A DNA stretch of 64,000 nt, taken from contig CALYLX010000127.1 in assembly GCA_944990035.1 (NCBI GenBank), positions 930,001 through 994,000 of the forward strand, read 5' to 3'. The notes beneath the pieces are model-generated. The model ran no database searches and was not told the DNA's origin. It saw only the letters and a program-made list of their open reading frames with translations. Shown piece after piece: positions 12,955 to 18,652 of the stretch. Both the position numbers and the translations under genes were made by a program. The stretch comes from Clitopilus passeckerianus (taxonomy: Eukaryota > Basidiomycota > Agaricomycetes > Agaricales > Entolomataceae). Numbering within the stretch: position 1 is the first letter of the stretch; each line of letters begins with the position of its first letter.

Positions 12955-14164
12955 ATGGCGGCAGCTCCGCTGCTATCGGAAGGTACGTAACCCTTCAGGG
13001 GCACAGCCACCAAGCAGTCCTTACTACGCCCTCATTCACGCTCAGGAGCCTATCCAGCAGGAATTACGAAAATCTTTTCAATAGCAGGGCCAGGAGTTGG
13101 TCCTCAGGAAGATATCAGAACGAATATAAAACTCAGGCGATTTTGCGAGAACGTTGGCCGCAATCGACTCGCCAAGCTACTACTGGTAGCCTGCCAACTT
13201 ATCCGAGTCTGCGTTTCCAATTTATAGAGAATATTGCACTGAAAAGAGTCGTGATTTGACAGCGATCATACTGGTGATTGTGGCTCCTGTTTGACGTTTT
13301 AGCGCCCAAGGGTAAGGTGACATGGGGATTACCGAACCTCCGATAGCTATGGAACCGATTTCAGTCCTGGTTGCTTAGTTCTCTCTTCACCCTTTCCCCT
13401 GTTGAAGTGATTATCGGATCTCATGGCCGCACAGCTGGTTGGTCTCATAGGCTGTATGATAATAGTTTAATGCTAATGCGACGCTTAGTCCGAAGGTGAG
13501 ATTTTCTGATCCTTGGTGTCTTCGGCATAAGGAATGAACGCTTTGGCGCTCAGAACAGATCTCTGGTGAGTAGTCTACAATTAAGATGGTTTCTAGGCCA
13601 GAATACTTAGAATGCTTCTTCATGTTCACTCAGAATACAAGGATGCATTTTCCGTGTACGACACGAACGGGGACGGAACAATCACTACCAGTGAACTGGG
13701 CGCTGTTATGATTGCCCTTGGCCAGAACCCAACGGAACAACAGCTTCAAAGTATGATCAAGGAGGTCGACTCCAATAAGAATGGCACTATCGACTTCGAA
13801 GAATTTATCTCCTTGATGTCACAGGAAGTCAAGGGCCTCAGTCAGCAGGAAGAGTTGCTCCAGACATTCAAGCAGTTCGATAAGGATGGGAGTGGTACGA
13901 TTACTAAGAATGAATTGAGGCATGTAATGAGCAGCATCGGTGAGGGAGTTAACGAGTTTTTGAGATTATGATTTTGTATTGACATTTTCCAGGGGAGAAC
14001 CTTTCTGACGAAGAACTCGACGAAATGATCAAGGAGGCAGATGTCAACGGCGATGGTCAAATTAACTACGACGGTAAGTATCATTTCTTTCCTCTTTTTG
14101 GCCGGTCTAACACTGTAAACTCTTTCCAGAATTCGTCCACATGTATTGTTCAACTTCCGGCTGA
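12955..14164 (+). CDS. Calmodulin-like protein, four EF hands (copy 1)
   Basis: Five exons: 12955-12982, 13554-13565, 13634-13939, 13993-14073, 14130-14164; about 153 residues. All four EF-hand loops are canonical (DTNGDGTITTSE, DSNKNGTIDFEE, DKDGSGTITKNE, DVNGDGQINYDE), so four calcium ions should bind. The 12-nt second exon (AACAGATCTCTG) joins LSE to EYKDAF through EQIS. The third to fifth exons have the same boundaries as the neighbouring calmodulin gene. Here the first exon carries the bases that form a separate 7-nt exon in the other copies, and the first intron is unusually long (571 bp). The tail differs from calmodulin (EFVHMYCSTSG instead of EFVKMMLSK), so target binding probably differs. 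It converges on the calmodulin gene, the stops being about 250 bp apart. Confidence 0.85.
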
Positions 14165-14412
14165 ATATTGAATATGTCTAATTTTCACAACAATTGTTCT
14201 CTGATTGCTGAATCGGATGTTGGCTTGTTTCCCGAACTCGTCGGTGGAAGTCATGGATACCTTCAATCGTGAAGCTTCACACTCACGGTCCATAGATTTG
14301 AGATTCAGGTCAGAGAGGCTGTATATTACCAGAAGCTTGTGTATACAAAGAAAGGCAATACGAAATGTTCGGTGGAAAAGTCATAAAATCCTGAAATTTA
14401 GTACATCTTAGT

Positions 14413-15162
14413 TTACTTGGAAAGCATCATCTTGACGAATTCTGTAAGTTAAGGAGGAGGGCGAGTTAGTGACATTCGAGAGGAGGCATGCGCACGCACC
14501 TTCATAGTTGATCTGACCATCGCCGTCAACATCGGCCTCCCTGATCATCTCATCAACCTCGGTATCCGATAGCTTCTCGCCTGCAAGTTGTGGTCAGAAC
14601 CTAAGTCTCAAGTATAGTTCACGTCGTCGATTCACCAAGGTTCGTCATGACGTGCCTCAACTCGGCTGCGCTGATGTAGCCGTTGCCGTCCTTGTCGAAG
14701 ACCTTGAAGGCCTCCTTGATCTCCTCCTCAGAATCAGTGTCCCTCATCTTCCTGGCCATCATGGTCAAGAACTCTGGGAAATCGATCGTCCCATTGCCGT
14801 CAGCGTCGACTTCGTTGATCATGTCCTGAAGTTCTGCTTCGGTTGGGTTCTGACCGAGAGAGCGCATGACAGTTCCGAGCTCCTTGGTGGTAATGGTGCC
14901 GTCGCCATCCTTGTCGAAGAGGGAGAAGGCCTCCTTAAATTCTACGCGTGTTGGACCATCAGATATCAGGTTTGTTCGAACCGACACACAACGTACCAGA
15001 GATTTGCTCTAAGACGACGCGTCGTGAACATCAGTCTTGGCTAGCCCAGATAACGCTTATGGGGTTTTGCACCATACCTTCGGACTATTGATTCCACATC
15101 CGCAATCAGCATTGATCTTCACAGCAGTAGGGTCACTAGACACGTACCAATTGATCAGCCAT
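14413..15162 (-). CDS. CMD1: Calmodulin
   Basis: Six exons on the minus strand: 15148-15162 (MADQL), 15078-15084 (7-nt microexon TCCGAAG), 14997-15008 (12 nt), 14636-14941, 14500-14580 and 14413-14441. Together they give 149 residues, the standard calmodulin length, with start MADQLSEEQISEFKEAF and end EFVKMMLSK. All four EF loops are canonical (DKDGDGTITTKE, DADGNGTIDFPE, DKDGNGYISAAE, DVDGDGQINYEE). It is the essential calcium sensor of the cell, regulating calcineurin, CaM kinases and myosins. All introns are 55-69 bp GT-AG. The exact fit to the conserved N-terminus confirms the two tiny exons. It is flanked by calmodulin-like paralogues on both sides and is the likely parent copy. Confidence 0.95.
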
Positions 15163-16604: not shown

Positions 16605-17812
16605 CGTTGACTCGATATGAATCATGACAGGGAGCTGCTTCCATTGCACATCTACCTGACGGTCGGTGGTTGTTAATCCCCATGTGGCAGTTATCTACCA
16701 ATGTATACAATCTTTCGCAATCAGTATCACACCAAAGATAATCCGCAGCAGGGGAGGAGGACTTCAGGAGAGTCATCTACTCGATTGCATCACTTTTGAC
16801 AGGTTACGAGAACTTACGACTACCTTTGCTTGATCTTGGCATTATTTGGGCCGGCAGCCGCTTTTCCTGCCGTGGTATGGACCTTGCGCACCATGCTGCT
16901 ATATTCCCAACCCTCCTGCCCTGCGTGGTCTGATATGGACAAGGGAATGATCTAACCCTAAGCTTGGGGTCTTAAAGCGATACCATTCAGGAGACAGTTC
17001 CTAAAAGCGGCGTGCAGAATACAAGGTCTTTTCCGCGCCGTGGCCCGGCAATGATATCACTCTGCAAAGTGAACACCTCGATAACCAACGCTGTCCACCG
17101 CCAATCCTGGTTCTTTTAAGCGAGATACACTGCCACTAGTCTTTGTAGGCTTCTATGTTAGATTTCTGGAGATCGAACCTCATTGCAGTGCACAGAATGC
17201 ACTGCCTTGCGGGTTTTGCGGTATTTGTGGGCGGGGGAACGTTGGGAAAAGGGATGTGGCTGTCCACTTTCGATGATCAATTGAGACGAGTGTGGGCAAC
17301 TGCCGATTTGCGCAGTCGAAGAATCTCGAACGTAATAAACCTCGTGCATTTACGATTGTTGATTTAGCTGTAAATTTTCATTTAACTAGGTGCAGAAGGC
17401 TCAAGACTTTGTAGATATTACAGCGGTTCCTGCCGAAAGAAGGGCTCGCTCATCGTGAGGTTTCCTGCCCGTTCCTGAAAGACCCCGTTGAATATTACCC
17501 GATGGCGTTGCAAAGTTCTATATCTGTATTTGCCATCTCTTCAATCGCATGCGTGCCTTTGGATATAATTGTATCTTTATCACTATATATATCCGGCATA
17601 TCCCCTCTTCGATAGAAGAATTTACTAGACTGGCATTGTCAAAAAACCGACCGCAGCGGCGGAATTGACGGAACGTTGTCAAATCACCGCTTCAAGTTTT
17701 CACAAGTGACCAGATTGAGATCACTGTTCCAAACTGTACCTTCCCGCCCTCGTTGCAACCTCCCACGTCTCGACATTTCAAAACCTCCAACGCTGAGAAC
17801 TGAGTCGTTGAA
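16605..17812. other. Intergenic, about 1.2 kb
   Basis: Between calmodulin-like copies 2 and 3. I looked for further EF-hand exons and found none. A TATATATATCC stretch lies near 17584, upstream of copy 3. Confidence 0.4.
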
Positions 17813-18652
17813 ATGGTTCCTCAGCCCGAGCACAAATCGAAAGCCCAACTGGTGAGATCGTCTTGGCATGAACAGTAGGCGGATCTGGGACTGATTTGAC
17901 GTCATTTTGGGAATTTTTGGATTGCTGCTGTGTAGACCGAAGGTACGTTCCTCTCGGTGCACCGCCTTGGTACGCTTGGATCTGACACTTCTCCTTATTG
18001 CTTTAGAGCAGAGAGACGGTACGTCAGCAGATTCTTGGATGCCTGATTGGATTTTGACTCGACTGGCTTATCAGAGTACAAGGCTGCGTTCTCGATCTTC
18101 GATGAGAGTGAGTCCCTGCCTGACTGGTCTTCTTGGCGTTGACTGATACTGGCATGGACAGATGGCGATGGCACAATCAACACTGCTGAACTTGGCAAAG
18201 TCATGTCGCGCTTCGTTGGGCGAGACTTGACAGAAGTCGAGCTCAAAGCACTGGTTGACCAGATTGACTACAACAACGACGGAAACATCAGCTTCGACGA
18301 GTTTGTCGACCTCATGACGAAACATATGGAAGGCTATGATCAAGATACTGAAGCCAGGCAGATCTTTAATGTCATTGATAAGGATGGAAGTGGTTTAATC
18401 AGCCCGAAGGAGCTGAAGGATACGATGAGGATATTGGAGAGCACCTGGGCGAGGAACAAATAAATGAAATGATCAAGGAAGTGGACAAGAATGGTGACGG
18501 GCAGATTGATTTTGAAGGTGCGTTATTCGATAATGGACACCTAACGCATCGCTGACTCGCTGTCGTCCATAGAATTCAAGCAGGTACGAAGACTTGCGTT
18601 CCTCCAGTCACAGACGGCTGAATTGACCCTCCGATAGATGCTTCGGTCCTGA
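17813..18652 (+). CDS. Calmodulin-like protein (copy 3), frameshifted before EF hand 4
   Basis: Exons 17813-17851 (MVPQPEHKSKAQL), 17936-17942 (7-nt microexon ACCGAAG), 18007-18018 (12 nt), 18075-18107, 18162-18517, 18573-18583 and 18638-18652 (MLRS and stop). EF loops 1-3 are canonical (DENGDGTINTAE, DYNNDGNISFDE, DKDGSGLISPKE). Just after DTMR the frame breaks. The open frame ends at 18463, while one base away IGEHLGEEQINEM and the fourth loop DKNGDGQIDFEE continue with intact splice sites. The other three copies have an intron exactly here; this copy has none. Either the protein is truncated to three EF hands, or the base is missing through assembly error. The 33-nt fourth exon has the same length as in copy 2, so these two are probably sister copies. 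Confidence 0.72.

Follow-up and report, generated by a model that had tools for sequence, protein, structure and literature searches.

We describe a calmodulin gene cluster in a 64,000-nucleotide stretch of the genome of the agaricomycete Clitopilus passeckerianus (assembly GCA_944990035.1, contig CALYLX010000127.1, positions 930,001 to 994,000; hereafter the window). One canonical 149-amino-acid calmodulin gene (CaM) on the minus strand stands here among three plus-strand relatives with four EF-hands each (g1, g2 and g4), in a span of about 5.2 kb (13423-18652). With one dispersed copy, g5, the family is a cluster plus an unlinked gene, five members including CaM. We consider it likely, with a probability of roughly 0.78, that the calmodulin family was expanded by DNA-level duplication into calcium sensors with changed contacts beside a housekeeping calmodulin. 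As judged from the sequence, C. passeckerianus probably possesses not one but several calcium sensors of the calmodulin type.

A pair of micro-exons marks the calmodulin family

The gene models were built by hand after reading both strands of the stretch and were then checked by script. They bear out a sequence-only reading of the same DNA, which had reported, with collinear exons and conserved loops, a minus-strand canonical calmodulin of 149 residues flanked by three diverged plus-strand relatives that have four EF-hands. Each of the 23 introns in the window models of the four genes has GT-AG borders. The models are as follows (window coordinates, except for g5):

13423..14164, plus strand: g1, calmodulin-like, 151 amino acids; in-frame spliced model, introns GT-AG in 5 of 5 cases; exons 13423-13437 (15 nt), 13489-13495 (7 nt), 13554-13565 (12 nt), 13634-13939 (306 nt), 13993-14073 (81 nt) and 14130-14164 (35 nt)
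15162-14413, minus strand: CaM, canonical calmodulin, 149 amino acids; spliced model of six exons, in transcript order 15162-15148 (15 nt), 15084-15078 (7 nt), 15008-14997 (12 nt), 14941-14636 (306 nt), 14580-14500 (81 nt) and 14441-14413 (29 nt)
15651..16604, plus strand: g2, calmodulin-like, 148 amino acids; 8 exons of 9, 7, 12, 33, 282, 81, 11 and 12 nt
17813..18652, plus strand: g4, calmodulin-like; 7 exons of 39, 7, 12, 33, 356, 11 and 15 nt
C157:543156-542418 and C97:338019-337280, minus strand: g5, calmodulin-type, 149 amino acids; exons of 15, 7, 12, 309, 81 and 26 nt

The feature that unites these genes is a pair of micro-exons of 7 and 12 nt, found at the same place and in the same phase in CaM, g1, g2 and g4, and also in the g5 model, where in every case it sits at the SE/QISE position of the protein. 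The 7-nt exon reads TCCGAAG in CaM and g1, ACCGAAG in g4 and AGTCAGG in g2. The surrounding architecture is likewise close, with exon lengths of 15-7-12-306-81-29 in CaM, 15-7-12-306-81-35 in g1 and 15-7-12-309-81-26 in g5, while g2 and g4 start with 9 or 39-7-12-33. A scan of the whole genome with a motif for the micro-exon pair returned 11 matches, namely CaM, g1 and g4 three times each and g5 twice, and the reversed pattern used as a control returned none. The motif demands GAAG, cannot match the 7-nt exon of g2 and would miss other altered forms; with this requirement, it had no match outside the calmodulin family anywhere in the genome, other EF-hand loci included. Since the micro-exons lie at homologous positions and the motif matches are specific to the family, the view that the relatives are DNA-level duplicates of one calmodulin gene is strongly supported, and this is the strongest evidence for it. 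The sequence-only reading had proposed a local duplication from calmodulin; duplication agrees with the micro-exons, the intron positions and the motif, and 'local' holds for the three window genes and fails for the unlinked g5.

The g2 and g4 genes have two further introns in common that are not in CaM, g1 or g5, one after the 33-nt exon, lying within the first EF-loop, and a second that follows the 11-nt EFxK exon. Because these introns are exclusive to the pair, and because g2 and g4 are neighbours on the same strand, the gene structures suggest that they are sisters. Alternatively, both introns may have been present in the ancestor and have disappeared from CaM, g1 and g5; the order of duplications is one that we infer. 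For both genes we also looked for first exons that could join the 12-nt exon directly and in phase. All such candidates for g2 ended at a GTGCAG donor, and the 9-nt plus 7-nt arrangement was preferred; the single candidate for g4, a 2-codon exon at 17868-17874, was set aside for the 39-nt plus 7-nt model.

The relatives are calmodulin-like proteins and not calmodulin proper

The window CaM is about 99% identical to the calmodulin of Lenzites betulinus over 149 columns and is calmodulin proper by this measure. None of the others qualifies as such, their identity to CaM being 63% for g1, 48% for g4, 42% for g2 and 40% for g5, and the four cluster proteins are 30-63% identical to one another (in the loop analysis below, g4 is represented by its open copy on contig C103). 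The relatives do have the features of calmodulin-like proteins, that is, four EF-hands, a near full-length match to calmodulin and no extra domain, with one degenerate loop in g5. Aligned to calmodulin chains, the matched segments cover residues 3-147 of 148 in g2, 12-155 of 157 in g4 and 3-148 of 149 in g5. In the search of solved structures g2 matched 4aqr (E 2.5e-31) and g4 matched 6o20 (E 1.6e-41); the best 60 of 523 matches of g2 were calmodulins, a calmodulin-related protein or calmodulin chimeras, and the best 60 of 601 matches of g4 were calmodulins or calmodulin chimeras. For g1, which was outside the structure search, the best 120 of 3417 database matches were 43-65% identical, and the named ones were mostly annotated as calmodulin or EF-hand protein.

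Other EF-hand identities were considered for g2, g4 and g5 and rejected. Among the 60 matches listed for each there were calmodulin types only, with neither centrin nor calcineurin B; 4il1, the top chain, fuses calmodulin with calcineurin and was matched best over its calmodulin part. Nor was a myosin light chain among the same 60 matches each, which did include myosin light chain kinase chimeras.

The fifth member, g5, came to light through a weaker EF-hand match on contig C157, with an allele on C97 (loci L016 and L017). It is unlinked to the calmodulin cluster and is 45% identical to g1. In the protein tree g1 and g5 form a clade with support 99/98. Three other EF-hand pieces of the genome had their best matches to centrin, to calcineurin B and, for the piece on C98, to calmodulins; the C98 piece, with a degenerate first loop, we take to be a myosin light chain, a light-chain identity that for these other EF-hand genes is our assumption. 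Beside the centrin-like gene, at C110:369629-370921 (locus L014), the opposite strand carries a near-identical piece of EF-hand exon, which may be a partial inverted copy or an assembly feature.

Calcium loops are largely retained and predicted target contacts differ

Oxygen-bearing residues occupy loop positions 1, 3, 5 and 12 in 16/16 loops of CaM, g1, g2 and g4 (12/12 in the relatives), while loop 2 (EF2) of g5 is without an acidic residue at position 12. From homology and from these loops, calmodulin-like calcium switching is predicted for the relatives.

The contacts are less well kept. In a chosen set of 28 contact or core sites, the CaM residue is retained at 18 sites in g1, 15 in g4, 13 in g2 and 11 in g5. 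Met71 is replaced by Leu in g1, g2, g4 and g5, Met145 is altered in g1, g4 and g5, and Lys115, which we take to be the calmodulin trimethylation site, is missing in g1, g2, g4 and g5. The sequence-only reading had proposed that the relatives may be stage-specific calcium sensors and, from differing C-terminal tails, that they may have different targets; the tails do differ in sequence, and so do many target-contact positions of the protein body. The altered contact residues and the lost Lys115 would fit changed partners.

The locus is assembled three times and most members appear constrained

The assembly (64.8 Mb in 160 contigs) contains the calmodulin locus three times: on C126, the contig of the window; on C103, 99.5% identical over 7.6 kb; and on C102, 92.8% identical over 6.6 kb. 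All four genes are collinear in each of the three copies, and GT-AG splice-site pairs are retained at 23/23 introns in C103 and 23/23 in C102, which is about 7% diverged. Between the window and C102, intron divergence is 11.7% for CaM, 10.5% for g1, 12.3% for g2 and 4.4% for g4. In the protein, a comparison of C103 with C102 finds 0/149 amino acid changes in CaM, 4/151 in g1, 11/148 in g2 and 0/157 in g4, where the protein is identical despite 12 nt differences; the corresponding NG86 ratios of nonsynonymous to synonymous divergence (dN/dS) are 0, 0.19, 0.13 and 0. The two g5 alleles, on C157 and C97, differ by 36 nt changes and 11/149 amino acid changes. In a neutral simulation the protein change was too low in CaM, g2, g4 and g5 (P 2.5e-4, the lowest value that 4000 runs can give), and most members of the family thus appear to be under constraint.

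The copies also bear on the start of g1, for which there is a second candidate:

12955..12982, plus strand: 28-nt exon with which g1 may alternatively begin; the frame holds when the 12-nt exon follows directly

Splicing from this exon to the 12-nt exon skips the 7-nt exon and keeps the frame (MAAAPLLSEEQIS...). The exon is present in C103 and has no match within the first 20 kb of C102. The start at 13423 reads MAAQL/SE..., mirrors CaM exon for exon and is found in all three assembled copies, and for these reasons it is the best-supported g1 start; the 12955 exon would be at most an alternative first exon. The sequence-only reading had the cluster span 12955..18652, within 6 kb; the clustering stands, and the beginning of g1 is better placed at 13423. 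The exon lies in a stretch upstream of g1 (window 12094-13234) that is unmatched in the first 20 kb of C102 although both of its flanks are matched, and which may be an insertion or replacement between copies.

Origin of the cluster

The history that we consider likely runs as follows. An intron-bearing calmodulin gene would have been duplicated next to itself, yielding g1 at one flank and, at the opposite flank, the ancestor of g2 and g4, and the g1 line would also have given rise to the unlinked copy g5. The relatives would act as calcium sensors that close on short target helices as calmodulin does, with changed contacts directing them to other targets or calcium ranges, while calmodulin itself would retain the essential housekeeping role.

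Several observations weigh against this account. The protein tree is weak, with 149 columns, long branches and 13 of 20 inner branches open; the only three starred branches are g1+g5, the g2 allele pair and the g5 allele pair. It does not group g2 with g4, although that grouping is not rejected (p 0.118), and it does not recover a single clade of all members with basidiomycete CaM, which is not rejected either (p 0.21). Loop 3 of g2 has a Cys at ligand position 9. The constraint on g1 is borderline (neutral simulation P 0.057). In the window copy of g4, a one-base length difference in the long exon near 18425-18435 causes a frameshift and a truncated product; g4 is open for 157 amino acids in C103 and C102, and the frameshift may reflect either a true null allele or a mistake in the assembly. 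Finally, that the targets differ is a prediction from protein sequence.

The tree leaves the depth of the relatives' origin unresolved, and it is from the tree that the idea of an older calmodulin-like family, predating the fungal calmodulin lineage and lying near calmodulin by chance, draws its case: branches are long, with path lengths to calmodulins of roughly 0.7 (g1) and roughly 2 (g2), and g1, g5 and g4 are placed with an ascomycete calmodulin-like (CML) protein and an unnamed metagenomic CML at support 81/83, on a branch drawn open. We consider this origin unlikely, given that the relatives share with CaM the micro-exon pair as well as further introns, that the genes are linked, and that the single clade with basidiomycete CaM is compatible with the alignment. 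Quite unlikely, in our judgement, is that the relatives are functional and largely redundant calmodulins retained for dosage. They do belong to the same fold family with the same calcium loops, and g1 keeps the CaM residue at 18/28 of the contact or core sites inspected; copies maintained for dosage should have remained similar, and the relatives are only 40-63% identical to CaM, against 99% between the window CaM and that of a polypore.

The frameshifted g4 of the window, the borderline constraint on g1 and the changes in g2, the most altered gene between copies (11/148), might also mean that the relatives are decaying duplicates or pseudogenes without present function. This is very unlikely when set against the open reading frame of g4 in 2/3 copies, with identical proteins despite the nucleotide differences, the protein change in g2, g4 and g5 that is too small for neutrality, and the complete set of splice-site pairs in each other copy. 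That the cluster is an assembly artefact of collapsed or chimeric haplotypes we regard as hardly credible. There are three assemblies of the locus, two of them nearly identical (99.5%), against two contigs each for g5 and the centrin-like gene, and the identity of C103 to the window falls from 98.9-99.9% to 93% past about 20.76 kb of the window (near 185 kb of C103), an abrupt drop that may mark C103 as a mosaic of haplotypes or as a chimeric assembly. The same four genes nevertheless occur in the same order in three copies, one of them 93% identical; proteins that are 30-63% identical to one another cannot be mis-assembled copies of one gene; and the calcineurin-B-like exon is likewise on three contigs, so that three copies are not unique to this locus. 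Expansion of one calmodulin gene by duplication into diverged sensors is the reading that we prefer.

Intergenic intervals and neighbouring sequence

The arrangement of the genes leaves two short intervals at the ends of CaM:

15163..15650: CaM/g2 head-to-head interval between start codons, 488 bp, candidate shared divergent promoter
14165..14412: g1/CaM tail-to-tail interval between stop codons, 248 bp, from the model coordinates

From this layout, shared control of CaM and g2 (head to head) and of g1 and CaM (tail to tail) is possible. The 488-bp interval is present only in the three copies of the locus. Against C102, 42/486 of its bases differ (8.6%), compared with 4.9-8.5% in four other intergenic stretches, and its degree of conservation is unremarkable for intergenic DNA. 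A more elaborate proposal would split the calmodulin role among linked specialised sensors, with the 488-bp interval driving both CaM and g2 as a divergent promoter and with g1 and CaM able to overlap in antisense at their 3' ends, giving coordinated, stage-dependent sensor ratios; we put it forward as a speculative and rather doubtful extension.

Just upstream of the cluster (window 7813-12146) long open frames resembling ankyrin repeats run in two reading frames that overlap. Downstream, at 23029-25625, two adjacent similar open frames with common stretches such as PGREKNYFESSGSAMFVYSLLKAVRLGYVKD look like tandem copies and presumably encode a glycoside hydrolase of family 105.

Comparison with known calmodulin systems

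Orthologs were sought in a database of 5.8 billion proteins. There were 18 matches for g4, the best at 45% identity, and two for g2, at 37-38%; none of the three window relatives had a close ortholog among the matches listed, and identities to g1 were 65% or less in the best 120 of 3417. Missing orthologs may reflect sampling, the word filter of the search or annotations that skip micro-exons. Exons so small may escape gene predictors and could thereby hide such genes in annotations; the micro-exon pair offers a simple marker at the DNA level with which to follow the family across agaricomycetes. Among the open-licence papers listed for fungal and mushroom calmodulin-like genes or micro-exons we found no description of a calmodulin cluster of this kind, and the accessible portions of PMC4195978 and PMC7089950 are silent on calmodulin duplicates.

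Compared with the calmodulin of fungi such as Lenzites betulinus and Coprinellus micaceus, the window CaM is a typical member, and the cluster relatives share four EF-hands and near full-length matches with it; they differ in being only 42-63% identical to CaM and in lacking Lys115. According to the accessible text of PMC7889229, calmodulin is essential in S. cerevisiae and N. crassa; that text gives no copy number. Because calmodulin is essential in several fungi, its roles are hard to dissect, and four diverged, mostly constrained sensors would provide a natural split of these roles.

The statement of the sequence-only reading that fungi normally have a single calmodulin is true of some species and not of others: as far as the accessible text of PMC3158057 goes, N. 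crassa and M. oryzae each have a single calmodulin gene, and Sclerotinia sclerotiorum and Botrytis cinerea each have two together with a calmodulin-like one. The latter two resemble C. passeckerianus in having extra calmodulin-type genes; they are ascomycetes, with two calmodulins and one CML, and the same portion of that source is silent on linkage and micro-exons. A diverged calmodulin-type gene is also reported for Tulasnella sp. SV6 in the excerpted text of PMC11503967, where transcript 18523, whose best match, Rhodofomes roseus calmodulin, is only 40% identical, ranks in the top 20 of the genes upregulated ahead of orchid-seed contact, with a log2 fold change of 3.35. The comparison there is by transcript identity, not by gene structure or position; since the transcript is raised, diverged calmodulins of other basidiomycetes can, on this partial evidence, be regulated.

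Extra calmodulin-type genes are thus already known in a few fungi, and the present family adds a new example. Outside fungi, calmodulin-derived sensors have arisen by duplication, some of it tandem, in the plant CaM/CML families and in the human CALML3/CALML5 cluster. Those are independent lineages; the relatives described here are linked to the canonical calmodulin itself and have its micro-exons in common.

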